DNA of 64,000 nt from Blautia sp. MSJ-19 (GTDB lineage: Bacteria > Bacillota > Clostridia > Lachnospirales > Lachnospiraceae): contig NZ_JAHLQA010000007.1 in NCBI RefSeq assembly GCF_018918125.1, forward strand, positions 248,001 to 312,000, written 5' to 3'. Below the pieces are notes generated by a model. The model searched no databases. It saw only the letters and a list, made by a program, of their open reading frames with translations, and had not been told where the DNA came from. Below are positions 28,118 to 54,405 of the stretch, piece by piece (the stretch's first letter is position 1; each line of letters begins with the position of its first letter). Made by a program: the position numbers and the translations under genes.

Positions 28118-30004
28118 ATGAATAAAAAGCAGAAAAAAATGCTCACACGCATTATCATAGCGGCAGTACTTCTGATCGTACTGCATTTCATTCCGATTAC
28201 AGGAATCCCGAGATTTGCCTGTTATCTGGCCGTTTATCTGGTGATTGGTTATGACATTGTAAAGAAAGCGTTTAAAGGGATCAAAAACGGTCAGGTATTT
28301 GATGAGAATTTCCTGATGGCAGTTGCCACAATCGGCGCATTTGCACTGGCCGTTTATGAGAGAAGCGGTGATTATAATGAATCTATTTCTGTTATGTTGT
28401 TTTATCAGATAGGAGAACTCTTCCAGAGTTATGCGGTCGGCAAGAGCCGTCGGAACATCACCGAACTGATGGATATCCGTCCGGATTATGCCAATATCGA
28501 AAACGATGGAAAGCTGGAAAAAGTCGATCCGGATGAAGTCGAGATTGGTTCGATCATCGTTGTGCAGCCGGGAGAAAAAGTCCCTCTCGACGGTGTGATC
28601 GTAGAAGGAAACACAACGCTGAATACCAGTGCACTGACTGGTGAGAGCCTTCCGCGTAATGCAAAAGCAGGAGATGAGATCATCAGCGGATGCATCAATA
28701 TGACCGGTGTGCTCAAAATCAGGACAACCAAAGAATTTGATGAATCTACCGTTTCCAAAATTCTGGAACTGATCGAGGAATCCAGTTCCCGTAAATCCAG
28801 ATCCGAGAATTTTATTTCAAAATTTGCCCGTTATTATACACCGGCAGTCTGCTATGGAGCGCTTGCACTGGCAATTCTGCCACCACTCGTAAACCTTGTG
28901 CTGCTTCATAATCCTGCACAGTGGGGACAGTGGATCTACAGAGCACTGACGTTCCTGGTAATCAGCTGTCCGTGTGCACTGGTCATCAGTATTCCGCTCA
29001 GTTTCTTTGCAGGAATCGGTGGAGCCAGCAACGCGGGTGTTCTGGTCAAAGGTTCCAACTATCTGGAAACTCTGGCGGAGACAAAATATGTGGTATTCGA
29101 TAAAACCGGCACATTGACAAAAGGAGTATTTGAGGTAGCCGGTGTGCATCACAATACCATGGAACAGGAAAAGATCCTGGAATATGCGGCACTTGCAGAA
29201 AGCTTTTCCACACATCCGATCAGCCGCAGTCTCAAGAGTGCTTACGGCAAAGAGATTGATCAGAATCGTGTGACAGATGTAGAAGAAATCAGCGGAAACG
29301 GTGTGACTGCAAAAGTAGATGGTATTTCTGTTGCGGTCGGTAATACAAAGCTTATGAAACGAATCGGTGTAGAAGCGGTAGAATGCCATCAGGTAGGAAC
29401 GGTCATTCATGTGGCGATCGACGGTGTCTATGCCGGTCATATCCTGATTTCAGATGTGCCAAAACCGACATCAAGAGATGCAATCACAAGTCTCAGAAAG
29501 AATGGAATCAAAGAGACCGTTATGTTGACCGGTGACATTGACCGCGTGGCACAGCAGGTAGCAGGAGAACTTGGCGTGGACCGTGTTTACAGTGAACTTC
29601 TTCCGGCTGACAAGGTAAGCAAAGTAGAGGAACTTCTTGCGAAGAAGGCGGAAAAAGAAAAACTTGCGTTCGTCGGTGATGGTATCAATGATGCACCGGT
29701 ACTTTCCAGAGCAGATATCGGTATCGCAATGGGAGCTATGGGCTCTGATGCAGCAATTGAGGCTGCGGATGTTGTTCTGATGGACGATGATCCGATGAAG
29801 ATTGTCAAAGCGATCCGCATTGCCAGAAAATGTATGCGTATTGTTTATGAAAATATTTATTTTGCAATCGGTATCAAAGTACTTTGCCTGATTCTTGGTG
29901 CAGTCGGCATTGCCAATATGTGGGTGGCAATCTTTGCAGATGTAGGAGTCATGATACTTGCAGTGCTGAATGCAATCCGTACCCTGTTTGTAAAAAAACT
30001 GTAA
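28118..30004 (+). CDS. Zn/Cd/Pb-type P1B-2 ATPase (CadA/ZntA family) lacking an N-terminal HMA domain
   Basis: A 628-residue heavy-metal efflux ATPase of the cytoplasmic membrane. It contains the actuator TGES, the transmembrane CPC motif in SCPCALVIS, the phosphorylation site DKTGTLT, the nucleotide-binding HP (THPIS), MLTGD and GDGINDAPVL. The last helix has FADVGVMILAVLNAIR, whose aspartate corresponds to the Zn/Cd/Pb-specific residue of ZntA. It begins directly with a membrane helix; the metal domain is encoded separately at 27776. Export of Zn(II), Cd(II) or Pb(II) is inferred from the motifs. Confidence 0.94.
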   Translation: MNKKQKKMLTRIIIAAVLLIVLHFIPITGIPRFACYLAVYLVIGYDIVKKAFKGIKNGQVFDENFLMAVATIGAFALAVYERSGDYNESISVMLFYQIGELFQSYAVGKSRRNITELMDIRPDYANIENDGKLEKVDPDEVEIGSIIVVQPGEKVPLDGVIVEGNTTLNTSALTGESLPRNAKAGDEIISGCINMTGVLKIRTTKEFDESTVSKILELIEESSSRKSRSENFISKFARYYTPAVCYGALALAILPPLVNLVLLHNPAQWGQWIYRALTFLVISCPCALVISIPLSFFAGIGGASNAGVLVKGSNYLETLAETKYVVFDKTGTLTKGVFEVAGVHHNTMEQEKILEYAALAESFSTHPISRSLKSAYGKEIDQNRVTDVEEISGNGVTAKVDGISVAVGNTKLMKRIGVEAVECHQVGTVIHVAIDGVYAGHILISDVPKPTSRDAITSLRKNGIKETVMLTGDIDRVAQQVAGELGVDRVYSELLPADKVSKVEELLAKKAEKEKLAFVGDGINDAPVLSRADIGIAMGAMGSDAAIEAADVVLMDDDPMKIVKAIRIARKCMRIVYENIYFAIGIKVLCLILGAVGIANMWVAIFADVGVMILAVLNAIRTLFVKKL

Positions 30005-30009
30005 CTACA

Positions 30010-30069
30010 GGATACGAAGGTCAAGAATTCATTCGTGCTTGCACGATAAGAATTTTGAACTTTGTATCC
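30010..30069 (+). other. Long imperfect hairpin between ATPase and ArsR genes
   Basis: GGATAC (30010-30015) pairs with GTATCC (30064-30069), and the intervening 48 nt continue the pairing through GTCAA/TTGAA, AATTC/GAATT and CGTGC/GCACG. It has no T run, so it is more likely an mRNA-processing or stability structure than a terminator. Confidence 0.65.
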
Positions 30070-30102
30070 GCCCAAACATGAAAAAAAGAAAGAGAGACAG
30101 AT

Positions 30103-30465
30103 ATGGCAGAAGAAAGAGAAGAAATAGCCTGCGAATGTCAGGAGATTCACGAAGAACTGCTGCAGATCGTGAATGAGACTATGCCAGATGAAGAAGAATT
30201 ATATGATCTGGCAGATCTGTTCAAAGTATTTGCGGATTCTACCCGTATCCGTATTTTGTTTGTCCTGTTTGAGTCGGAAGTGTGCGTCTGCGATCTGGCA
30301 AAAGTCCTGAACATGACGCAGTCAGCAGTATCACATCAGCTTCGCATCCTGAAGCAGAACAAACTGGTAAAAAATCGAAGAGAAGGAAAATCTATTTTTT
30401 ACTCCCTGGCGGATGACCACGTGAGAACGATCATTTCCATGGGAAGAGAACATATCCTGGAATAA
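30103..30465 (+). CDS. ArsR/SmtB-family metal sensor repressor
   Basis: A 120-residue winged-helix repressor. The recognition helix region is LNMTQSAVSHQLRILKQNKLV. Two metal sites can be recognised. The alpha-3N site has cysteines in CVCDL plus an N-terminal CEC pair, as in CadC. The alpha-5 site has the pattern D-x-H-x10-H-x2-E in the last helix (DDH...REHILE), as in CzrA/SmtB. It should repress the 27776 operon from the palindrome at 27714 and release DNA when Zn, Cd or Pb binds. It is the last gene of the operon and ends at a terminator. Confidence 0.92.
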   Translation: MAEEREEIACECQEIHEELLQIVNETMPDEEELYDLADLFKVFADSTRIRILFVLFESEVCVCDLAKVLNMTQSAVSHQLRILKQNKLVKNRREGKSIFYSLADDHVRTIISMGREHILE

Positions 30466-44682: not shown

Positions 44683-45419
44683 GTGAAACGATCCTGGAAG
44701 TGCAGCACCTGGGAAAATCCTTCGGAACACATGAGATCCTGAGAGACATTGATTTCTCTGTAAAACCGAAAGACGTTACCTGCATCATCGGACCTTCCGG
44801 TTCCGGTAAATCCACATTGCTGCGCTGCATGAACCTTCTGGAGACACCGTCATCCGGCGAGATCCGCTACCACGGAACAAACATCATGGACAAACATGTG
44901 AACGTTCCGGAGTACCGCTCTAAAGTCGGTATGGTGTTCCAGAACTTTAACCTTTTTAACAATATGACAGTTCTCAAGAACTGCACAGTCGGACAGGAAA
45001 AAGTCCTCAAAAAAAGCAAAGAAGAGGCACATAAGAACGCGATGATGTATCTCGAAAAAGTCGGCATGGCTCCATACATCAACGCAAAGCCAAAACAGCT
45101 TTCCGGTGGACAGAAGCAGAGGGTAGCAATCGCAAGAGCCCTCGCCATGGAACCGGAGATCCTGCTCTTTGACGAGCCGACATCTGCCCTCGACCCACAG
45201 ATGGTCGGAGAGGTACTGGAAGTTATGAGAACCCTTGCCAAAGACGGACTGACAATGATCATTGTCACACATGAGATGGCATTTGCGAGAGACGTTGCAA
45301 AGCACGTGATCTTCATGGGTGATGGAGTCATCGTGGAGGAAGGAACCTCCCAGCAGATCTTTGAGAACCCACAAAAAGAAATGACAAAAGAATTCTTAAG
45401 CCGTTTCAGGAACGCGTGA
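44679..45419 (+). CDS. Polar amino-acid ABC transporter ATP-binding protein
   Basis: A 246-residue GlnQ/HisP-type ATPase. Walker A GPSGSGKSTLLRC is at about residues 37-45, the signature LSGGQKQRVAIARALAM is complete, Walker B is [13 protein letters not shown], and the switch histidine is in VTHEMAFA. It overlaps the permease by 4 nt (ATGA). Confidence 0.95.
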   Translation: MSETILEVQHLGKSFGTHEILRDIDFSVKPKDVTCIIGPSGSGKSTLLRCMNLLETPSSGEIRYHGTNIMDKHVNVPEYRSKVGMVFQNFNLFNNMTVLKNCTVGQEKVLKKSKEEAHKNAMMYLEKVGMAPYINAKPKQLSGGQKQRVAIARALAMEPEILLFDEPTSALDPQMVGEVLEVMRTLAKDGLTMIIVTHEMAFARDVAKHVIFMGDGVIVEEGTSQQIFENPQKEMTKEFLSRFRNA

Positions 45420-45421
45420 GC

Positions 45422-45745
45422 TGGGAACTACCCAGTGGCCCGTCAATAATTTGACAATGTTGGGAACTACCCAGCGGCCCGGTTGTTTGGCAAACATAAA
45501 ACCCTGAGGGGGAGCATCTCAAAGTTGCGAAGGCCGAAGCTCCCAAGCAGCGGACATTCGCAATCCGCATACGCTACTTGCTCATACACGCAATAGATTG
45601 CGTGTATACTCCCCCTGCTTGGCCACGCCTGGTGCATCAAGACGGAACAGTGTTGACGCCAACTGCTAGGGCTGTTTCGCTACGCGAAAAGCGCGATAGC
45701 TGGAGTTCCCGCGAGCACGCCGAAGGCGTGGTGTCGACGGGCCCG
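45422..45745. other. GC-rich, highly structured intergenic region
   Basis: About 325 nt with markedly more G and C than the surroundings and no credible gene. TGGGAACTACCCAG occurs twice (45422-45435 and 45461-45474, each followed by a GGCCCG-type sequence). There is a near-perfect palindrome ATACACGCAAT/ATTGCGTGTAT (45584-45607), CCAAGCAG paired with CTGCTTGG about 65 nt later, and CACGCC/GGCGTG near 45716-45730. It may be a non-coding RNA or the remains of acquired DNA. I recognise no known family. Confidence 0.5.
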
Positions 45746-45849
45746 TAGTATGTGATATTGCGGAAACATGTAGAATAAAAGAAATACGTAGGATTGGTTA
45801 GTTTCAGGTGCAAATCTGAACCATACAGAAAAACAACAACATAAGTAAG

Positions 45850-45885
45850 CGCAGACTCATGGGGTAACCGTGCAAGTCTGCGTTT
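45850..45885 (+). terminator. Hairpin preceding repeat copy B
   Basis: CGCAGACT (45850-45857) pairs with AGTCTGCG (45875-45882), followed by TTTATATTTA. It could end a transcript from the region upstream, or be the 5' part of the repeat element. Confidence 0.5.
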
Positions 45886-45888
45886 ATA

Positions 45889-46020
45889 TTTATACGAAAA
45901 TCTTCTGACTTGAAACACCAGGAGAATTTTTCAAAGGCCACCCCATAAAACAAAATTTCCGTCAAACACTCAGCCCAGGGGTGGGCGAGGGGACGGGCGA
46001 CGTCCCTTCGCGGTCTTCTT
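45889..46020 (+). repeat. Dispersed hairpin repeat, copy B
   Basis: A 132-nt copy in the plus orientation: TTTATACGAA, GAAACACCAGGAGAATTTTTC, GTCAAACACTCAGCCCAGGGG, then an 11-bp hairpin GCGAGGGGACG (45985-45995)/CGTCCCTTCGC (46001-46011), loop GGCGA, then GGTCTTCTT. Confidence 0.87.
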
Positions 46021-46103
46021 ACATGCCAATGTAAATTGTCGGGTGCATGGGAAGTTCCCATGTATTTGTATGGAAAAAAATACAATTTACGACAAAGCAT
46101 TTC

Positions 46104-46132
46104 TGGACAGAACAAAAAATATAAGATATAGT
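46104..46132 (+). promoter_or_regulatory. Promoter upstream of the cobalamin riboswitch
   Basis: TGGACA (46104-46109), 17 nt, TATAGT (46127-46132). Transcription would start near 46139, about 12 nt before riboswitch helix P1. Confidence 0.7.
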
Positions 46133-46150
46133 TAAAGTGTAAATAAATAA

Positions 46151-46350
46151 CATTTGTTGGTTTTGAACCAGCCTTTGTAAGTTCCGGTGCATTTCTGCAC
46201 ACGGATTAAAAGGGAAACCGGTGTAAATCCGGTACGATCCCGTCACTGTGATAGGGAGTTGCGAAACATATATCCACTGGAGTGGCATAAGCCAGTCTGG
46301 GAAGGAGTTTCGGAGCAAAGATCTTAAGTCAGGAGACCTGCTTACAAATG
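46151..46350 (+). ncRNA. Cobalamin riboswitch
   Basis: An adenosylcobalamin-type aptamer of about 200 nt. P1 is CATTTGT (46151-46157)/ACAAATG (46344-46350). The core has GGGAAACCGGTGTAAATCC, then GGTACGATCCCGTCACTGTGA, which fits the conserved GGGAA...GGTGnAAWTCC...CCCG(C/T)nRCTGTRA pattern. The 3' B12 box AGTCAGGAGACCTGC is at about 46327-46341. An intrinsic terminator follows at 46401, so cobalamin binding should end transcription and turn off the transporter operon. This identification is strong by consensus. Confidence 0.95.
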
Positions 46351-46400
46351 ATAAGATATGATTCTTACGGTAGATAGGAAGCATTGTTTTTTCGTGTGCA

Positions 46401-46436
46401 AACGTCCGTATTATGTTGTTTACGGATGTTTTTTTC
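46401..46436 (+). terminator. Riboswitch expression-platform terminator
   Basis: Stem AACGTCCGTA (46401-46410)/TACGGATGTT (46421-46430) with one G-U pair, followed by T5. It lies 50 nt after the aptamer and 105 nt before the first gene. Confidence 0.88.
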
Positions 46437-46540
46437 TGCGCTTTTTTGCGTCACATATCCAGGACGCGTATTTTCCCTGCCATTTTTTACAATTGAATCA
46501 TATCCGGTGAAGAACCTCTGCAATGTAGGAAGGAGAAACA

Positions 46541-47479
46541 ATGTCAAAAAAACAATTTGGAAAAAGGCTCCTGCAGCTCCTGATCGTTCTGATCGGTGTA
46601 AGTTTCTTTACATTTGGACTTACTTACCTTTCTCCAGGTGATCCGGCTGAGATTATGCTGACAGAGTGTGGTAACCTGCCAACACCGGAACTTCTGGAAC
46701 AGACGAGACATGAACTGGGCCTTGACCAGCCGTTTCTGGTGCAGTACGGCAACTGGGTAAAAGGAGTACTTACCGGAGACATGGGAACTTCATATGCATT
46801 TAAAGTTCCTGTAACTGAGAAACTGATGAAATGTTTTTGGCCGACTCTTCAGATGTCGCTCTTCGCGCTTTTGTTGATGATCCTGTTCTCCATACCATGC
46901 GGAATCCTCTCTGCGGTATATCAGAACAAGTGGCCGGATTATCTGATCCGAGGAATCACGTTCTTCGGAGTATCGATTCCGAGCTTCTGGATTGGCCTGA
47001 TTCTTCTGAGCATCTTTGGAGTGCAGCTTCGCTGGATCAACGTAGCAGGAGGTACGACCGACTTTAAGGCGATGATCCTGCCGTCTGTGACACTGGCACT
47101 GTCCATGTCCGCGAAGTACACCAGACAGGTGCGAAATGCAGTCCTTGAGGAACTGAGACAGGACTACGTGATCGGAGCCAGAATGCGAGGAATCAAAGAA
47201 AGTGCGATCCTCTGGAAACATGTACTTCCAAATGCAATGCTTCCGATTGTAACTCTGCTTGGTCTTTCCCTCGGCTCTCTGCTCGGAGGAACAGCAGTTG
47301 TTGAGATCATTTACAACTGGCCTGGAATGGGAAGCATGGCGATTAAGGCAATCGCCTGTCGCGACTACCCGATGGTACAGGCATATGTACTTATGATTGC
47401 GATCATGTACATGGTCATCAATATCATCGTTGATCTGTCCTATACATATCTGGATCCAAGAATAAAGGAGGTTAAGTAA
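46541..47479 (+). CDS. Nickel/peptide-type ABC transporter permease (NikB/DppB-like)
   Basis: A 312-residue permease of the DppB/NikB group. It starts KRLLQLLIVLIGVSFFTFGLTYLSPGDPAE, with the conserved SPGDPA, a later EAA-type loop (VIGARMRGIKESAILWKHVLPNAMLP) and about six helices. It is the first gene after a cobalamin riboswitch. The family carries di- and oligopeptides, Ni(II), opines or heme; the riboswitch suggests a cobalt- or corrinoid-related ligand, but this is inference. Confidence 0.92.
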   Translation: MSKKQFGKRLLQLLIVLIGVSFFTFGLTYLSPGDPAEIMLTECGNLPTPELLEQTRHELGLDQPFLVQYGNWVKGVLTGDMGTSYAFKVPVTEKLMKCFWPTLQMSLFALLLMILFSIPCGILSAVYQNKWPDYLIRGITFFGVSIPSFWIGLILLSIFGVQLRWINVAGGTTDFKAMILPSVTLALSMSAKYTRQVRNAVLEELRQDYVIGARMRGIKESAILWKHVLPNAMLPIVTLLGLSLGSLLGGTAVVEIIYNWPGMGSMAIKAIACRDYPMVQAYVLMIAIMYMVINIIVDLSYTYLDPRIKEVK

Positions 47480-47480
47480 A

Positions 47481-48305
47481 TTGAAGAAACAGAATTTTTT
47501 CCTGGCTCACAAACAGTTTACCTTATTCTTTATTCTGGCTCTCGCCGTTGTAGGTACAGCGATTTTTGCCCCGTGGATCGCACCGAAGGATCCGCTGGAG
47601 GCAGTGATGATTGATTCACTCAAAGCTCCGTGTGCGGAATACCCGCTTGGCGCTGACAAACTGGGACGAGACATTCTCTCCCGTGTGATCTATGGTACCA
47701 GAACTTCTCTGGTGTCTACCCTGATCCTTGTAGCAACAATTTTTGTTGTAGGTACTTTACTTGGAATCATTGCCGGATATTTTGGCGGCTGGATCGATCA
47801 GGTGATCATGCGAATCGCAGATATGATGATCTCTTTCCCGGGAATGATCCTGGCTATCGCAATCGCAGGTATGCTCGGACCAAGCCTTCGGAACGGAGTT
47901 ATCGCGATCACAGCGGTAAGCTGGACAAAATACGCGCGTCTGGCAAGAAGTATGGTTTTGAAAGTAAAACGTAATCTGTATGTGGAAGCTGCCATTGTAA
48001 ATGGTACGAGCACATTCAAAATCTTATGGAAACATATCCTTCCAAACATGCTGACGATCATGACAGTAACAGCTGCGGCAGATATGGGAACCATGATGCT
48101 TGAACTTGCATCTCTTTCTTTCCTGGGATTCGGAGCTGTGGCACCGACACCGGAATGGGGACTGATGCTGAATGAAGGAAGAACTTATATGGCAAAAGCA
48201 CCGTGGCTTATGATCGCACCGGGTATCGCCATCGTAATCGTAGTAATCATTTTCAATATGCTTGGTGACAGTATCCGAGATATTCTGGACCCAAGACAGG
48301 ACTAA
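47481..48305 (+). CDS. Nickel/peptide-type ABC transporter permease (NikC/DppC-like)
   Basis: A 274-residue permease with the DppC/NikC layout: FAPWIAPKDPLEA near the start, GADKLGRDILSRVIYGTRTSL, and the coupling loop YVEAAIVNGTSTFKILWKHILPN. It begins at a TTG 9 nt after AAAGGAGG, 1 nt after the preceding stop. It pairs with the 46541 product. Confidence 0.92.
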   Translation: MKKQNFFLAHKQFTLFFILALAVVGTAIFAPWIAPKDPLEAVMIDSLKAPCAEYPLGADKLGRDILSRVIYGTRTSLVSTLILVATIFVVGTLLGIIAGYFGGWIDQVIMRIADMMISFPGMILAIAIAGMLGPSLRNGVIAITAVSWTKYARLARSMVLKVKRNLYVEAAIVNGTSTFKILWKHILPNMLTIMTVTAAADMGTMMLELASLSFLGFGAVAPTPEWGLMLNEGRTYMAKAPWLMIAPGIAIVIVVIIFNMLGDSIRDILDPRQD

Positions 48306-48310
48306 TATAT

Positions 48311-48471
48311 AAGCTACCAGGGTGAAAAGAGATGAATCCACATGAGCCTGCTCATAAGTGGATGAAGAATCTTGGAACCCGCCCCGATATGAGCATAAAA
48401 GTGGGATGATAATCCCGCGATATGCGAAGAGAGGGTAGAATTGCGAGAGTTACTTGGTAACGGAGCAATTC
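48311..48471 (+). ncRNA. Structured leader upstream of the binding-protein gene (unassigned)
   Basis: A 210-nt gap inside the operon that folds well by eye. CTACC (48314-48318)/GGTAG (48434-48438) closes two arms: ATCCAC (48336-48341)/GTGGAT (48358-48363) with inner GAG/CTC, and GCATA (48393-48397)/TATGC (48421-48425) with inner GGGAT/ATCCC. A second hairpin follows, GAATTGC (48438-48444)/GCAATTC (48465-48471), with inner GTTAC/GTAAC. It resembles a three-way junction RNA but matches no class I know. It could be a riboswitch or an mRNA-stabilising 5' structure. Confidence 0.55.
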
Positions 48472-48515
48472 GTAAGTAGCGTAAACGACTGAAAAGTATA
48501 AAAGGAGAAAAATAT

Positions 48516-50063
48516 ATGAAAAACAGAATCGCAAAAAAAGTCTGTGCAGCAGCACTTGCAGGTCTTATGACAATGGCACTTGTTCCAACATCCGTATTTG
48601 CAGCAGGAACAATGACGATCGGTGTAACAAGCTTCGCTGATACACTGGAGCCGACAGAGCAGTATTTCAGCTGGGTTATCTCACGTTATGGCGTTGGACA
48701 GGGACTTACCAAATTTGATGAAGAAGGAAACATGGTACCATGTCTTGCAACAGAGTGGACCAACAGTGAAGACGGAAAAACATGGACATTTACGATTCGT
48801 GAGGGTGTTAAATTCTCTAACGGCAACGATATGACACCAGAGCTTGTAAAAGCATCTCTGGAGCGTACCATCGAAATGTCAAACCGTGTACCGGAGTTCT
48901 TTGATATAGACAGTATTGAAGTTGACGGACAGAACCTTATCTTCAATCTGAACAGAGCAAATGCAAACATGGCAGGATGTCTGGCAGACCCGCTGTTCCT
49001 GATCATGGATACAAGCATTGACAACTCCAACATCGCAATGGAAGGACCAGTATGTACAGGACCGTACGCATTCCAGTCTTTTGACCCGTCAGGCGACACC
49101 GTTGTTGTACGTAACGAGTACTACTGGGATGGAGAAGTTCCGAATGACAGCGTAACTCTTCGTATCATCGGCGACCAGACAACACGTTCCATGGCACTTC
49201 AGTCCGGTGAGATCGATGTTGCTTACAACTTAAAGACAGAGAACGTTTTTGAATTTGACGGAAACGACAACTACAACATCCAGTCTCTGGAATCCCTTCG
49301 TTCTACTTATGCATTCATGAACGAGAATGGAGCACTTGGTGATCTGGCACTTCGTCAGGCAGTTCTTCGTGGACTTGACAAAGAAACTTACACAAGCGTA
49401 CTTCTCGAAGGCGGCGCAACACCAGGAAAAGCACCGGTACCTCCGACACTGGACTATGGATATGACGAACTGAACGATGAGAACGCTTACGATCCGGATG
49501 GAGCAAAACAGGTTCTTGAAGATGCAGGATACAAAGATGTAGATGGTGACGGATATGTAGAAGATCCGGACGGAAACCCGGTAGAGCTTACTTTCGTATA
49601 CTATGACAGCCGTGCAGAACTCGGTGTATACGCACAGGCAGCACAGGCAAGCCTCAAAGAGATCGGAATCAACATCAAGCTTGACTGCGTATCTTATGAG
49701 ACACTTCTTGACCGCCGTGATTCTTCCCAGTACGATCTCCTGATCTGGAACGTACTCGTTGCAAACACAGGTGACCCGGAAAACTACCTTCGTGAGAACT
49801 GGTACAGCACATCTGCAAACAACACAGCAGGATATGCAAACGAAGATGTAGACAAATGGCTGGATGAACTGGCAGAAACAATTGATACAGATGCAAGAAA
49901 AGAACTGATCGTGAAGATCCAGCAGGCGATCATGGATGATGCAGCAACCGTATTCTTTGGATATGAAAACACTTTCCTTATCTCCAAAGCAGACGTAGAA
50001 GGACTTGTAATGTATCCAATGGATTATTACTGGGTAACTGCTGACATGAAGATGGCTGAATAA
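48516..50063 (+). CDS. Nickel/peptide-type ABC transporter, substrate-binding protein (SBP_bac_5)
   Basis: A 515-residue exported binding protein of the DppA/OppA/NikA class. The signal peptide ends at VFA-AG, with no lipobox cysteine. Family features are GQGLTKFDEEGNMVPCLATEW, WTFTIREGVKFSNG and TGPYAFQSFDPSGDTVVVRNEYYW. A Ca-binding-like acidic patch (DVDGDGYVEDPDG) is present in the C-terminal lobe. The ligand is unknown; peptide, nickel, cobalt chelate or a corrinoid are all possible. It has its own structured leader, suggesting separate control. Confidence 0.92.
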   Translation: MKNRIAKKVCAAALAGLMTMALVPTSVFAAGTMTIGVTSFADTLEPTEQYFSWVISRYGVGQGLTKFDEEGNMVPCLATEWTNSEDGKTWTFTIREGVKFSNGNDMTPELVKASLERTIEMSNRVPEFFDIDSIEVDGQNLIFNLNRANANMAGCLADPLFLIMDTSIDNSNIAMEGPVCTGPYAFQSFDPSGDTVVVRNEYYWDGEVPNDSVTLRIIGDQTTRSMALQSGEIDVAYNLKTENVFEFDGNDNYNIQSLESLRSTYAFMNENGALGDLALRQAVLRGLDKETYTSVLLEGGATPGKAPVPPTLDYGYDELNDENAYDPDGAKQVLEDAGYKDVDGDGYVEDPDGNPVELTFVYYDSRAELGVYAQAAQASLKEIGINIKLDCVSYETLLDRRDSSQYDLLIWNVLVANTGDPENYLRENWYSTSANNTAGYANEDVDKWLDELAETIDTDARKELIVKIQQAIMDDAATVFFGYENTFLISKADVEGLVMYPMDYYWVTADMKMAE

Positions 50064-50080
50064 TAAAGGAGTCTGTAAGA

Positions 50081-50866
50081 ATGCTGGAAATCAAAGATCT
50101 GGCTGTACAGTATGGTGATCAGGAACCTACGATTGAACATTTCAACCTTTCCATGAAAAAGGGCGAGATCATCAGTGTTGTAGGAGAGAGTGGAAGTGGA
50201 AAAACTACCGTGATCCGTGCTGTCCTCGGCGCACTGGCCGGGGCAGGACGTGTTACCAGTGGCGATATCCTCTTTCACGGGGAATCCCTTCTGAAAAACT
50301 CCAAAAACGACTGGAGAAAGATCCGTGGCAGCAAAATGTCCATGATCTTTCAGGACTGTGGAGGAACCCTGAATCCGATCCGCAAGATCGGCAGCCAATA
50401 TGTAGAATATATTCGCACACATGAGTCAATGCCAAAACAGGAAGCATGGCAGAAAGCTGTTACCATGCTCACCAAAATGCGTCTTCCGGATGCAGAAAAT
50501 ATCATGAACAGCTATCCATATCAGTTGTCCGGTGGTATGCGCCAGCGTGTCGGAATTGCCATGGCAATGACTTTTAACCCGGAACTCCTTCTGGCAGATG
50601 AGCCGACCAGTGCACTGGATGTAACAACACAGGCACAGATCGTCCGTCAGATGATGGAACTCCGTGATGATTTCGGAACAGGGATCATCATTGTTACACA
50701 CAACATCGGTGTGGCCGCTTATATGGCAGACCAGCTGATCGTTATGCACCACGGAAAGGTTGTAGATCATGGAACCAGAGAAGAGGTTCTGAACAATCCG
50801 ACCAGTGACTACACAAAGAAACTTCTGGAAGCAGTTCCGGAAATGGAGGGAAAACGATATGTCTGA
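50081..50866 (+). CDS. Nickel/peptide-type ABC transporter ATP-binding protein (NikD/DppD-like)
   Basis: A 261-residue ATPase. Walker [14 protein letters not shown] is at about residues 35-43, the signature is [15 protein letters not shown], Walker B is [13 protein letters not shown], and the switch histidine is in [14 protein letters not shown]. It is shorter than DppD because the C-terminal oligopeptide-transporter domain is missing; the next ATPase carries one. Confidence 0.93.
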
Positions 50867-51830
50867 AAATCATGAGATCGTCATGCAGGCAAAGCATATT
50901 GTAAAACAGTTCCCTGCTTCCCATGGCAGAACTTTAACTGCCTGCAATGATATCAACCTGACCATGTACAAAGGACGTACCCTTGGAATCGTAGGAGAGA
51001 GCGGCTGCGGCAAATCCACATTTGTCCGTATGGTAATTTCCCTTGATAAGCCGACAAGTGGTGAGATCCTTTATCATGGCAAAAACATCACAGGACTTTC
51101 AAAGAAAGAAACCTGGGAAAACCGTCAGAATCTTCAGATGGTTTTTCAGGACCCGCTTGCATCTTTTAACCCGAAGATGAAGATCGGGGACATTCTGACA
51201 GAGCCTCTGATGAATTACAAAAAGATCAAAAGAAACGAAAGAGATGCAAAGGCCAGAGAACTCCTCCGCATGGTTGAACTTCCGGAAGAGTTTGTAGACC
51301 GCTATCCTCATAACATGAGTGGTGGACAGCGTCAGAGAATCAGTATCGCAAGAGCACTTTCTCTGGAGCCGGAGATTCTGGTCTGCGATGAGGCAACTTC
51401 TGCACTGGACGTTTCTGTACAGGAGTCTGTTATTGAACTTCTGGTGCGCCTTCAGAAAGAAAAGAACATCTGTATGATCTTTATCTGCCATGACCTGGCA
51501 CTGATCCGTTCTTTCGCACATCAGATCGCAGTTATGTACCTGGGACACATTGTGGAGACGATTCCGGGTGAAGATGTTTCCGACCATGCAGTACATCCGT
51601 ACACCAAAGCACTGGTTGGGGCACAGTTCTCCGTTCATATGGATCCAGCCAAAAAGATCGAAAGCATCGAGAGCGAGGCACCAAGTCCACTGGATGTGCC
51701 GACAGGATGCCCATTCCAGAACCGCTGTGAACATTGTACAGAACAGTGTAAGAAAGAAATGCCGGAGCTTAAAGAAATTGCACCGGGTCATGAAGTTGCC
51801 TGCTTTTATGTGGAAAATATGAAAAAATAA
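50859..51830 (+). CDS. Nickel/peptide-type ABC transporter ATP-binding protein (NikE/DppF-like)
   Basis: A 323-residue ATPase. Walker A GESGCGKSTFVRM, signature MSGGQRQRISIARAL, Walker B LVCDEATSALDVS, and a C-terminal oligopeptide/dipeptide transporter motif with cysteines (PTGCPFQNRCEHCTEQCKK), often linked to an iron-sulfur site. The start at 50859 is 8 nt after GGAGGG and overlaps the previous gene by 8 nt. Confidence 0.93.
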   Translation: MSENHEIVMQAKHIVKQFPASHGRTLTACNDINLTMYKGRTLGIVGESGCGKSTFVRMVISLDKPTSGEILYHGKNITGLSKKETWENRQNLQMVFQDPLASFNPKMKIGDILTEPLMNYKKIKRNERDAKARELLRMVELPEEFVDRYPHNMSGGQRQRISIARALSLEPEILVCDEATSALDVSVQESVIELLVRLQKEKNICMIFICHDLALIRSFAHQIAVMYLGHIVETIPGEDVSDHAVHPYTKALVGAQFSVHMDPAKKIESIESEAPSPLDVPTGCPFQNRCEHCTEQCKKEMPELKEIAPGHEVACFYVENMKK

Positions 51831-51851
51831 ACAGAAGGAGGCAAGCAGTAG

Positions 51852-53093
51852 ATGAAGAAAAGAATACTCAGTCTGATGCTGGGTGCGGCACTTATCGCCG
51901 GAACTCAGAGTACTGTGTGGGCCGATGTAGAGAACTACTCAGACGGAGATGTTCATACCATCGGTGTAGCCCTGTATGATCCGGACTCTGCGGAGATGAA
52001 AATGTTTGCAGATTATTACCGTGATTATATCGAAGAAGGTTTTCCTGTAAAATTTATTTTTTCTGGAAAGCTTACGGATTCTGAGGCAGAAAAGGCATTC
52101 ATCGAGGAAGCCAAAGCAGAAGGTGCAGAGGGGATCATCTCTTTTGCCGGATATGCAGACGGTCTTGCGGACATCGTTAAAACCTGCGAAGAAGAGGAAA
52201 TCTACTATGCACTGGGTTCTAATACGGTAAGTGATGAAAACTACGATGCAGTCAAAGATAATCCATGGTACATGGGAAGTGTCGGACCGGATCTTGAGAC
52301 TGTTTATCAGGCCGGATGCGACATGGCAGAGTTTTTCCTGGATAAAGATGCCAGAAACATCGTGATCATGTCCGGTGGTGCATCTTCCGGAAACAGACTT
52401 CATCAGGTAAGAACCTGGGGAATGCTGAATACACTGGAAGAGAAATCCGGTCTTGTACTTGATAAAGATGCAGAGGAGCTTTCTGCGACAGATAAAGTGA
52501 CCGAACTCGCAGACAAGGACGGAAACTTACACGTTACGATCTGCCCGGGATATACCGAGGGTGGAGAGGGACTTGACAATCTGGAAACCGTATTTGCAGA
52601 AGGTGAATGCGACACCGTCATGAGTGCGTTCCATGTATCTTCTTACCTGGACAAGATCTCCGATAAGGAAAAAGAACAGGACAGCAACATTATGGTTGGC
52701 GCGATCGACAGTTTTACCGAGCAGAACTTTGAGATCTTCAAAGAAAAAGATTCTTTTGGAAACGCACCGATCGATTATGTACGTGGTAAATACGCTTCCA
52801 TGGCAGGCCCGGCATTTGCAATGATCTACAATGCGATCACCGGAACACCGGATGCAGTCGAGGAAGATGGTGTGGCAGTACGCCTGTACCAGAATCTCTG
52901 GACGGCGAAGTCCGAGGAAGAATATATTGAACTGTATGGTTATGCGACAGGTATTTACGAAAATGCGTATAGCTGTGATGACCTGATGGAGGTCATCGGA
53001 CAGTTTAGTGAGGATGCAAATCCGCAGAGCTTTAAGGAGTTGACGGAAGCGTCTGATGTGGAGAGCGTGAAAGAGAGGATTTTTGCTCACTAA
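51852..53093 (+). CDS. Exported type-1 periplasmic-binding-protein-like protein (orphan)
   Basis: A 413-residue exported protein. The signal peptide ends at VWA-DV with no lipobox. The mature part resembles the sugar/BMP-type type-1 fold: HTIGVALYDPDSAEMKMF, AEGAEGIISFAGYADGLADIV, NPWYMGSVGPDLETVYQAGCDMAEFF, NIVIMSGG. Its best-known relatives work with other ABC systems, but no matching permease is present. It lies 21 nt after the ATPase gene, in the same riboswitch-controlled operon. Its role (second ligand, sensor input or scavenging) is unknown. Confidence 0.82.
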   Translation: MKKRILSLMLGAALIAGTQSTVWADVENYSDGDVHTIGVALYDPDSAEMKMFADYYRDYIEEGFPVKFIFSGKLTDSEAEKAFIEEAKAEGAEGIISFAGYADGLADIVKTCEEEEIYYALGSNTVSDENYDAVKDNPWYMGSVGPDLETVYQAGCDMAEFFLDKDARNIVIMSGGASSGNRLHQVRTWGMLNTLEEKSGLVLDKDAEELSATDKVTELADKDGNLHVTICPGYTEGGEGLDNLETVFAEGECDTVMSAFHVSSYLDKISDKEKEQDSNIMVGAIDSFTEQNFEIFKEKDSFGNAPIDYVRGKYASMAGPAFAMIYNAITGTPDAVEEDGVAVRLYQNLWTAKSEEEYIELYGYATGIYENAYSCDDLMEVIGQFSEDANPQSFKELTEASDVESVKERIFAH

Positions 53094-53102
53094 AAATCTG
53101 GT

Positions 53103-53138
53103 AAAGGGGATGGAGTTTTTGGCGCCATCCCCTTTTTT
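53103..53138 (+). terminator. Intrinsic terminator ending the riboswitch operon
   Basis: Stem AAGGGGATGG (53104-53113)/CCATCCCC(TT) followed by T6. Confidence 0.9.
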
Positions 53139-53373
53139 CTTACATTCCAATATAAAAAAACAGCAGGGCAACTGCAAAACAAACAAATGCCAATACAATT
53201 TGACGGGGACAGGGGAAGTCCCCCAGTAATTTGTCGAACGATTCCTCTTGGAATTAAAACCAGAATATGTTAATCTAAAAACATCTTATAAAATATTTCT
53301 GATAAATTCTTTTGCTTCTGCTCAGAAGCACTATTCCATGAATATTGTTTATATTTGGATAAGGAGTTATTTG

Positions 53374-54405
53374 ATGAACACCAAATTAAAACAATACTTT
53401 CAAATGATACATACAAAAGAAGAAATCTTTCAGGAAATTGAAAAAAATGTAAAACTAACAGAAGAATTCTATAGCTGGCGCGAAGAACAACGAGAGGATT
53501 TCCTGGATTTCTGTACAGGAGTCAAAGGCGTGAAAATGCTGTATGATTCTTTTTTTAAAGAAATCATGAATCCCGAAACCGTACCAGAGCGGCCGGAAGA
53601 CTTTTTGAGTGTTCTTTTACAGAAAAAAGTAAAAATTGTCGAGGTACTGCCGGGAGACAGCACAAGACTTGCCGATGAGCAGTCACTGCTTATGATGGAC
53701 ATTCTGGTAAGGTTTGAGGATGGCTCTTACTGTAATGTGGAAGTCCAGAAAATAGGCTATGCATTTCCAGGAGAGAGATGCGCCTGCTACTCTTCTGATC
53801 TGTTATTGAGACAATATAAAAGTGCACGAAGCAAAAGAAAAAATGAATTTACGTATAAAGATGTGAAAGGTGTATATACAATTGTTCTGATTGACAAAAG
53901 TCAAGGAGAATTTCATAAATTTAAAGACATTTACAGACATGCTTTTGAACAAAAATCGGATACAGGACTCAAATTAAATCTGCTACAGAATTATGTTTTT
54001 ATTCCGCTTGACATATTCCGAAAAACCATGGAAAATAAAGGCATAAGCAATAAACTGGATGCATGGCTGGCATTCCTGAGCATGGATTCTCCGGAAATGA
54101 TTATGGAACTGTCCAACAAGTATCCAGAGTTTAGAGCAATGTATGAACATGTATATAACATATGTCAGAACGTGGAGAAGGTGATGGGTATGTATTCAGA
54201 AGAACTAAAAATCCTTGATCAGAATACGGTAAGATACATGGTAGACCAGATGCAGGAAGAAATAGACAGCCAGAAGAACCAGCTGGAAATAAAGGATAAA
54301 CAACTTGAGTGGCAAGAGAAGGAACTGAAACAGCAAGGAAAACAATTGGAACAACAGGAGAAAGAATTACAGAAGTTACGCCGGATGCTTGCGGAAAAAG
54401 GATAA
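53374..54405 (+). CDS. Rpn-family recombination-promoting nuclease / PD-(D/E)XK transposase-like protein
   Basis: A 343-residue protein of the Rpn/PD-(D/E)XK nuclease family (transposase-31-like). It contains FCTGVKGVKMLYDSFFKEIMNPE and the nuclease core MDILVRFEDGSYCNVEVQK with the Asp and Glu-x-Gln pattern, then RCACYSSDLLLRQY. The C-terminus is a Gln/Glu/Lys coiled coil. Such proteins promote RecA-independent recombination and are often scattered in Lachnospiraceae genomes. AAGGAG (53361-53366) is 7 nt before the ATG at 53374; the frame is open to 53248. A partial repeat-like hairpin is at 53208-53225. Confidence 0.85.
   Translation: MNTKLKQYFQMIHTKEEIFQEIEKNVKLTEEFYSWREEQREDFLDFCTGVKGVKMLYDSFFKEIMNPETVPERPEDFLSVLLQKKVKIVEVLPGDSTRLADEQSLLMMDILVRFEDGSYCNVEVQKIGYAFPGERCACYSSDLLLRQYKSARSKRKNEFTYKDVKGVYTIVLIDKSQGEFHKFKDIYRHAFEQKSDTGLKLNLLQNYVFIPLDIFRKTMENKGISNKLDAWLAFLSMDSPEMIMELSNKYPEFRAMYEHVYNICQNVEKVMGMYSEELKILDQNTVRYMVDQMQEEIDSQKNQLEIKDKQLEWQEKELKQQGKQLEQQEKELQKLRRMLAEKG

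Follow-up and report, generated by a model that had tools for sequence, protein, structure and literature searches.

NikABCDE operons preceded by a B12 riboswitch in Clostridium tetani and Desulfitobacterium hafniense have been set apart from the nickel-specific ones and predicted to import cobalt (PMC2667541), so that the prediction of cobalt import for such operons is in itself already known, and the nikA riboswitch of Sporomusa ovata has been used in a further study (PMC9600662). In C. difficile, three cobalamin switches serve the cobalt transporter CbiMNQO, a system resembling BtuCDF, and the genes of the cbi/cob group (PMC11477304). Here we describe an operon on the forward (+) strand of a 64,000-nucleotide stretch of Blautia sp. 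MSJ-19 DNA (contig NZ_JAHLQA010000007.1, positions 248,001 to 312,000; hereafter the window, whose own numbering we use), in which a cobalamin riboswitch is followed by a Nik-type importer and by a second exported binding protein of a sugar-binding fold. From its sequence and that of its relatives, we consider it probable, at roughly 0.7, that the operon serves cobalt uptake in an organism with its own corrinoid synthesis. It resembles the B12-switched NikABCDE operons in joining a riboswitch to a Nik-type importer, and differs from them in its second, sugar-fold binding protein, none being mentioned for those operons in the accessible part of their description.

An Rfam covariance search placed the cobalamin riboswitch aptamer (RF00174) at 46162–46359, full-length (model positions 1–189 of 189) and at 115 bits against a cut-off of 31.5. 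A faint B12-box look, noticed by eye at about 45800–45918, was considered as a second aptamer and rejected, since a permissive Rfam search of 45400–53400 gave no further cobalamin match. Behind the riboswitch lie two permease genes, of NikB/Opp2B type (46541–47479; BPD_transp_1, 177 bits; NF045470, 392.5 against a cut-off of 350) and of NikC/Opp2C type (47481–48305; NF045474, 331.1 against 300), then the gene for a NikA-related substrate-binding protein of the SBP_bac_5 family, here called SBP5 (48516–50063; Pfam, 290 bits). Two ATPase genes follow, both assigned by family-model matches, one OppD/NikD-like (50081–50866) and one OppF/DppF-like with an oligo_HPY domain (50859–51830; the mechanical open reading frame starts at 50805, and the protein was searched from one codon upstream of the ATG at 50859). 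The last gene, SBP1 (51852–53093), encodes an exported sugar-type binding protein of the type-1 fold, with no permease of the same kind in the operon, and a terminator hairpin with a T-run (53103–53138; −19.9 kcal/mol, z −3.2) closes the set. Two BPD_transp_1 permeases, two ATPases and an SBP_bac_5 protein together make up an ATP-binding cassette (ABC) importer of the Nik/Opp type. Both the consensus aptamer and this layout, from riboswitch to terminator, had been read from the letters of the window in an earlier note by a model, and both were borne out.

When corrinoids are scarce, the riboswitch would let transcription pass a hairpin followed by a T-run (46400–46432; fold of 46360–46445, z −2.6), which is probably the termination part of an OFF switch. 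The Nik/Opp2-type importer and SBP5 would then be made and would probably import cobalt chelated by a small organic molecule, and the last gene of the presumably co-transcribed set would add exported SBP1 as an accessory. A promoter-like site ahead of the aptamer (TGGACA-17-TATAGT, 46104–46132) has 10 of 12 consensus bases and may be the promoter, the number of such sites not exceeding that in shuffled sequence.

The argument for cobalt comes from the company that the transporter keeps. We searched 396 genomes of the family Lachnospiraceae for the permease (E up to 1e-105) and for CbiD, taking the draw as identical across searches, and found CbiD in 25 of the 25 genomes with the permease and in 201 of the 371 others (Fisher p 6e-7, uncorrected for kinship). 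One relative (G146) carries on a single strand, in this order, the riboswitch and the genes for SBP5, both permeases, both ATPases, CbiD, CbiG, CbiH, CbiJ/E/T, CobB and CbiB; this arrangement lacks SBP1 and was read with a gap of about 0.7 kb behind CbiD. Blautia sp. MSJ-19 also has CbiD, in a cbi cluster (CbiD, G, H, J/E/T and CobB) that lies elsewhere in its genome, and gave no CbiM match. A gene context of corrin synthesis together with B12 control is thus found for this kind of transporter; the window itself holds the riboswitch part of it.

The ligand had been proposed in the earlier note to be related to cobalt or to corrinoids. The CbiD counts and the position of the G146 transporter ahead of cbiD support the first half of that proposal; the second half is less likely, because another riboswitch of the same genome lies near BtuF/FecCD-type genes. 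This is one of three cobalamin riboswitches in the genome, and beyond it, after about 1.6 kb of unassigned sequence, are genes for a NEAT-like protein (below cut-off), a Peripla_BP_2 protein, a FecCD permease and an ATPase (L005, 5717–11744). Peripla_BP_2, FecCD and ATPase genes are the usual make-up of corrinoid uptake, and this set is a probable corrinoid uptake system. Import of corrinoids or their precursors (cobinamide, cobalamin) by our operon, with SBP5 as the receptor, would agree with riboswitch control, and Opp-type importers can accept large ligands. We nevertheless regard it as quite unlikely, given the better-fitting Peripla_BP_2 and FecCD genes behind the other riboswitch and the restriction of the permease in the family to genomes with CbiD, when a scavenger would be useful without CbiD too. 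Two of 20 operon-bearing genomes of the genus gave no CbiD match, and these are incomplete assemblies (77 and 81% completeness). With three cobalamin riboswitches, one of them beside probable corrinoid uptake genes, the genome resembles that of C. difficile (PMC11477304). The third riboswitch (L004, 11425–11618; G000:C1:323425-323618) has no clear gene directly behind it and a glycyl radical enzyme gene about 3.2 kb on; it could control a regulatory RNA. Riboswitch-controlled regulatory RNAs are known for ethanolamine and propanediol genes.

The operon occupies the same regulatory slot as the energy-coupling factor (ECF) cobalt transporter CbiMNQO, although the two are built of unrelated protein families. 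Of 19 genes for true, short-form CbiM in the genus, 17 had a riboswitch match within the region retrieved around them, and no gene of the longer NikMN form had one nearby. One of the 20 genus genomes with the operon has short-form CbiM, against 18 of the 44 without it (p 0.003); for good-quality genomes, the figures are 0 of 12 with the operon and 8 of 22 without (p 0.03). Here and below, the 20 genus operons include one (G137) seen only from a contig end and exclude that of G182 (L176), which has decayed to permease and ATPase fragments behind a well-scoring riboswitch.

SBP1 recurs with the operon. Of the 64 genus genomes, 17 gave a match to it, as did 6 of 120 genomes in a family draw (the genome of the window included) and 59 loci in named genomes. 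The 76 loci collected by SBP1 (L049–L124) came down to 65 after the removal of 10 same-contig duplicates and of L065, a second, distant SBP1 match (30%) in G144 that has no operon. All six genes were present at 54 of these 65; nine loci were partial at contig ends, and two had no full SBP1 match. At L124 (B. massiliensis), the operon is present with only a short SBP1 match. Among the full operons, 46 had 500 bases or more of upstream sequence, and in 42 of these a riboswitch lay on the same strand, at most 3.6 kb upstream, as judged with a profile built on 19 Rfam-found examples, some of them from the same loci, and at loci themselves picked by SBP1. The misses were L074, L078, L086 and L115, the last of which does have a riboswitch before SBP5, skipped by the script because another transporter lies upstream. 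The co-occurrence of SBP1 homologs with operon and riboswitch, raised in the earlier note as a point to be checked, is thus seen. Of the 54 full operons, 52 end with SBP1 and two begin with it, and in these two a cobalamin riboswitch of its own stands ahead of SBP1 (L063, 9658–9840; L064, 309–491) and a second one before SBP5. Over 51 loci, SBP1 distances correlated with permease distances (r 0.81).

Operons found by the permease instead gave a different proportion: SBP1 accompanied 16 of the 20 in the genus and those of 5 of 23 genomes outside it, one of the latter loci (L236) ending before the place of SBP1. A riboswitch match was present in 18 of these 23 outside genomes, two of the matches being weak. 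We conclude that SBP1 is a frequent accessory and not a core part, because it is present in most operons of the genus and in few outside; nor can it serve as the main receptor of the importer, given how many such operons do without it. Among the paper titles listed in a literature search, none pointed to a protein of this fold within a cobalt or nickel operon under a B12 switch, and none showed a prior report of the recurrent sugar-fold companion, the family-wide CbiD association or the arrangement with the cbi operon.

Several observations pull against a cobalt-uptake operon with SBP1 as one of its parts. Within the genus, CbiD is near-universal and shows no link with the operon (18 of 20 genomes with it, 39 of 44 without), and because the genomes are related, our Fisher tests overstate their independence. 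A CbiM-type gene also occurs in at least 11, perhaps 13, of the 25 permease-bearing family genomes, in a manual classification by match ends and frame length that does not count G252 and G396. That the operon simply replaces CbiMNQO was suggested by the genus pattern and not upheld by that of the family; because at least 11 family genomes hold both kinds together, the operon and CbiM are not general alternatives. Neither was found in 26 of the 64 genus genomes, so other routes exist. For SBP1, the correlations with core genes (r 0.76–0.84) are lower than most of those among the core genes themselves (r 0.79–0.95; all loci), values that species kinship alone could yield, and no SBP1 was found in 4 of the 20 genus operons and in 18 of the 23 others. 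Finally, the residues proposed to hold the ligand in NikA (Arg97, Arg137, Tyr402 and His416, as listed in PMC2667541) align to Ser, Asp, Gly and Ser in SBP5; in this alignment, the Arg137 position adjoins an indel, and the NikA sequence taken from PDB has Ala at 97, 137 and 402, which we take to be an engineered mutant. No His or Cys is among the positions conserved to at least 95% in 54 SBP5 sequences, and Cys293 is conserved to 90% in a 29-row alignment. Because the NikA ligand residues are not kept and neither His nor Cys reaches that level of conservation, a chelated metal seems a likelier ligand of SBP5 than a bare ion.

The same residues bear on whether the operon imports nickel, with its riboswitch control being indirect. 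Both permeases exceed the cut-offs of the NCBIfam models that name them nickel permeases (Opp2B and Opp2C), and the solved structure closest to SBP5 by sequence (3t66) is labelled nickel-binding. In its permeases, the operon is thus like the Opp2BC/Opp5A nickel system of S. aureus; unlike that system, its binding protein scores 310 against an Opp5A cut-off of 600. The permeases also fall short of the equivalog cut-offs for E. coli NikB (326 against 447) and NikC (302 against 358), and the loss of NikA's proposed ligand residues sets SBP5 apart from NikABCDE. With a cobalamin riboswitch in front, a linkage to cbiD, and the presence in the genus of distinct NikMN-type genes that show no riboswitch match, nickel import appears very unlikely to us.

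SBP1 has the two-lobe type-1 fold and resembles ribose- and glucose-binding proteins. It scores 27.2 against the Pfam cut-off of 35.1 for Peripla_BP_4, a family (PF13407) listed for many of its close relatives; a PDB sequence search with SBP1 alone gave no match, and one with an SBP1 profile gave a single weak one (E 0.038). Four distant relatives that adjoin sugar-type permeases share the invariant His, Arg, Asp and Gln of SBP1, and SBP1 differs from proteins of the Peripla_BP_4 kind in standing behind a B12 riboswitch without a permease of its class. The earlier note had called SBP1 an orphan and had suggested import of the ligand in two forms. The lack of a matching permease in the operon stands, whereas the protein is not there by chance, being a recurrent operon part. 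The second suggestion was not borne out: because of the sugar-binding fold and the invariant residues common to relatives beside sugar-type permeases, a second form of the metal is unlikely to be its ligand. As to a possible joint loss of lipid anchors by the two binding proteins, a crude lipobox script found the motif in both SBP5 and SBP1 at 17 loci, in neither at 21 and in one of the two at 12, several of these mixed calls being wrong by eye; at 15 loci, at least one of the proteins was missing or unclassed.

The earlier note had also suggested a sensor or scavenger, and our guess is that SBP1 may scavenge or sense a sugar-like compound. More specifically, it may be a receptor taken from a carbohydrate transporter and repurposed for corrinoid supply, capturing a ribose- or sugar-bearing compound that is needed when B12 is short, and without a permease of the same class, a proposal we consider unlikely. 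In this proposal the ligand might be, for example, alpha-ribazole (a lower-ligand nucleoside) or a sugar-type cobalt chelate, which SBP1 would hand on or whose presence it would signal. Alternatively, SBP1 could be a passenger, its gene in the operon and its protein serving a sugar permease elsewhere, which would be compatible with cobalt import by the remaining genes. The sugar-type fold, the relatives adjoining sugar-type permeases and the many operons without SBP1 would all agree with this, but it sits awkwardly with the same position and the same switch across many genomes and with the riboswitch that SBP1 has to itself in L063 and L064; we hold it to be possible, if doubtful.

Between the second permease and SBP5 genes, the window carries a Clostridiales-1 element (RF01699, 48312–48481, + strand; 108.8 bits against a cut-off of 48). 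The corresponding gap measures about 15 bases in the relatives L229 and L070, compared with the 170-base element in the window, and a scan of 18 related loci with SBP1 (L027 among them) listed no RF01699 match above the cut-off. The genome has 15 matches, five of them over the cut-off (the window copy and those in L012, L013, L015 and L016), and these five have inverted ends (TGATACC...GGTATCA or variants). Four run in the direction of the gene that follows, and the fifth is reversed. By these features, Clostridiales-1 resembles a dispersed repeat bounded by inverted ends. A structured leader had been proposed ahead of SBP5: an element is indeed present there, and a leader specific to binding-protein genes was rejected, as the five strong copies adjoin unrelated genes, one of them in the opposite orientation. 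Clostridiales-1 is catalogued as a small RNA (sRNA), and a table of Weinberg et al. (2010) marks it y, n, n (PMC2864571), which we take to stand for RNA, cis-regulatory and switch. Elsewhere in the window, a heavy-metal P-type ATPase gene with a CPC motif is followed by a gene that looks ArsR-like by eye (28118–30465), and a weak, below-cut-off Clostridiales-1 match (30002–30181) spans the gap between the two and the start of the second.

The neighbours of 63 SBP1 loci included P-type metal ATPases (30), AstE/AspA-type hydrolases (26), MATE pumps (23) and regulators of the ArsR (7) and LysR (5) kinds, counted without a background control and, for all kinds except ArsR, checked on examples. These kinds fit metal handling, and P-type ATPases, AstE/AspA hydrolases, MATE pumps and LysR also adjoin operons without SBP1. 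At L085, a P-type metal ATPase gene sits between the riboswitch and SBP5. By pattern, 15 of 32 neighbouring P-type ATPases have CPC, and no motif was matched in 17. An AstE/AspA-type hydrolase was rejected as a required partner, being present at 26 of 63 loci and giving no match in the genome of the window, in a search without a positive control there.

The operon offers a concrete candidate cobalt importer for Blautia and its relatives, not all of which have the usual CbiMNQO. Gut corrinoid makers can supply cobamides to their neighbours, and for that supply they need cobalt. SBP1 adds a recurrent second exported protein, whose ligand is open to direct screening; should it prove to bind a cobalt complex or a building block of corrinoids, the sugar-binding fold would have been put to a new use.

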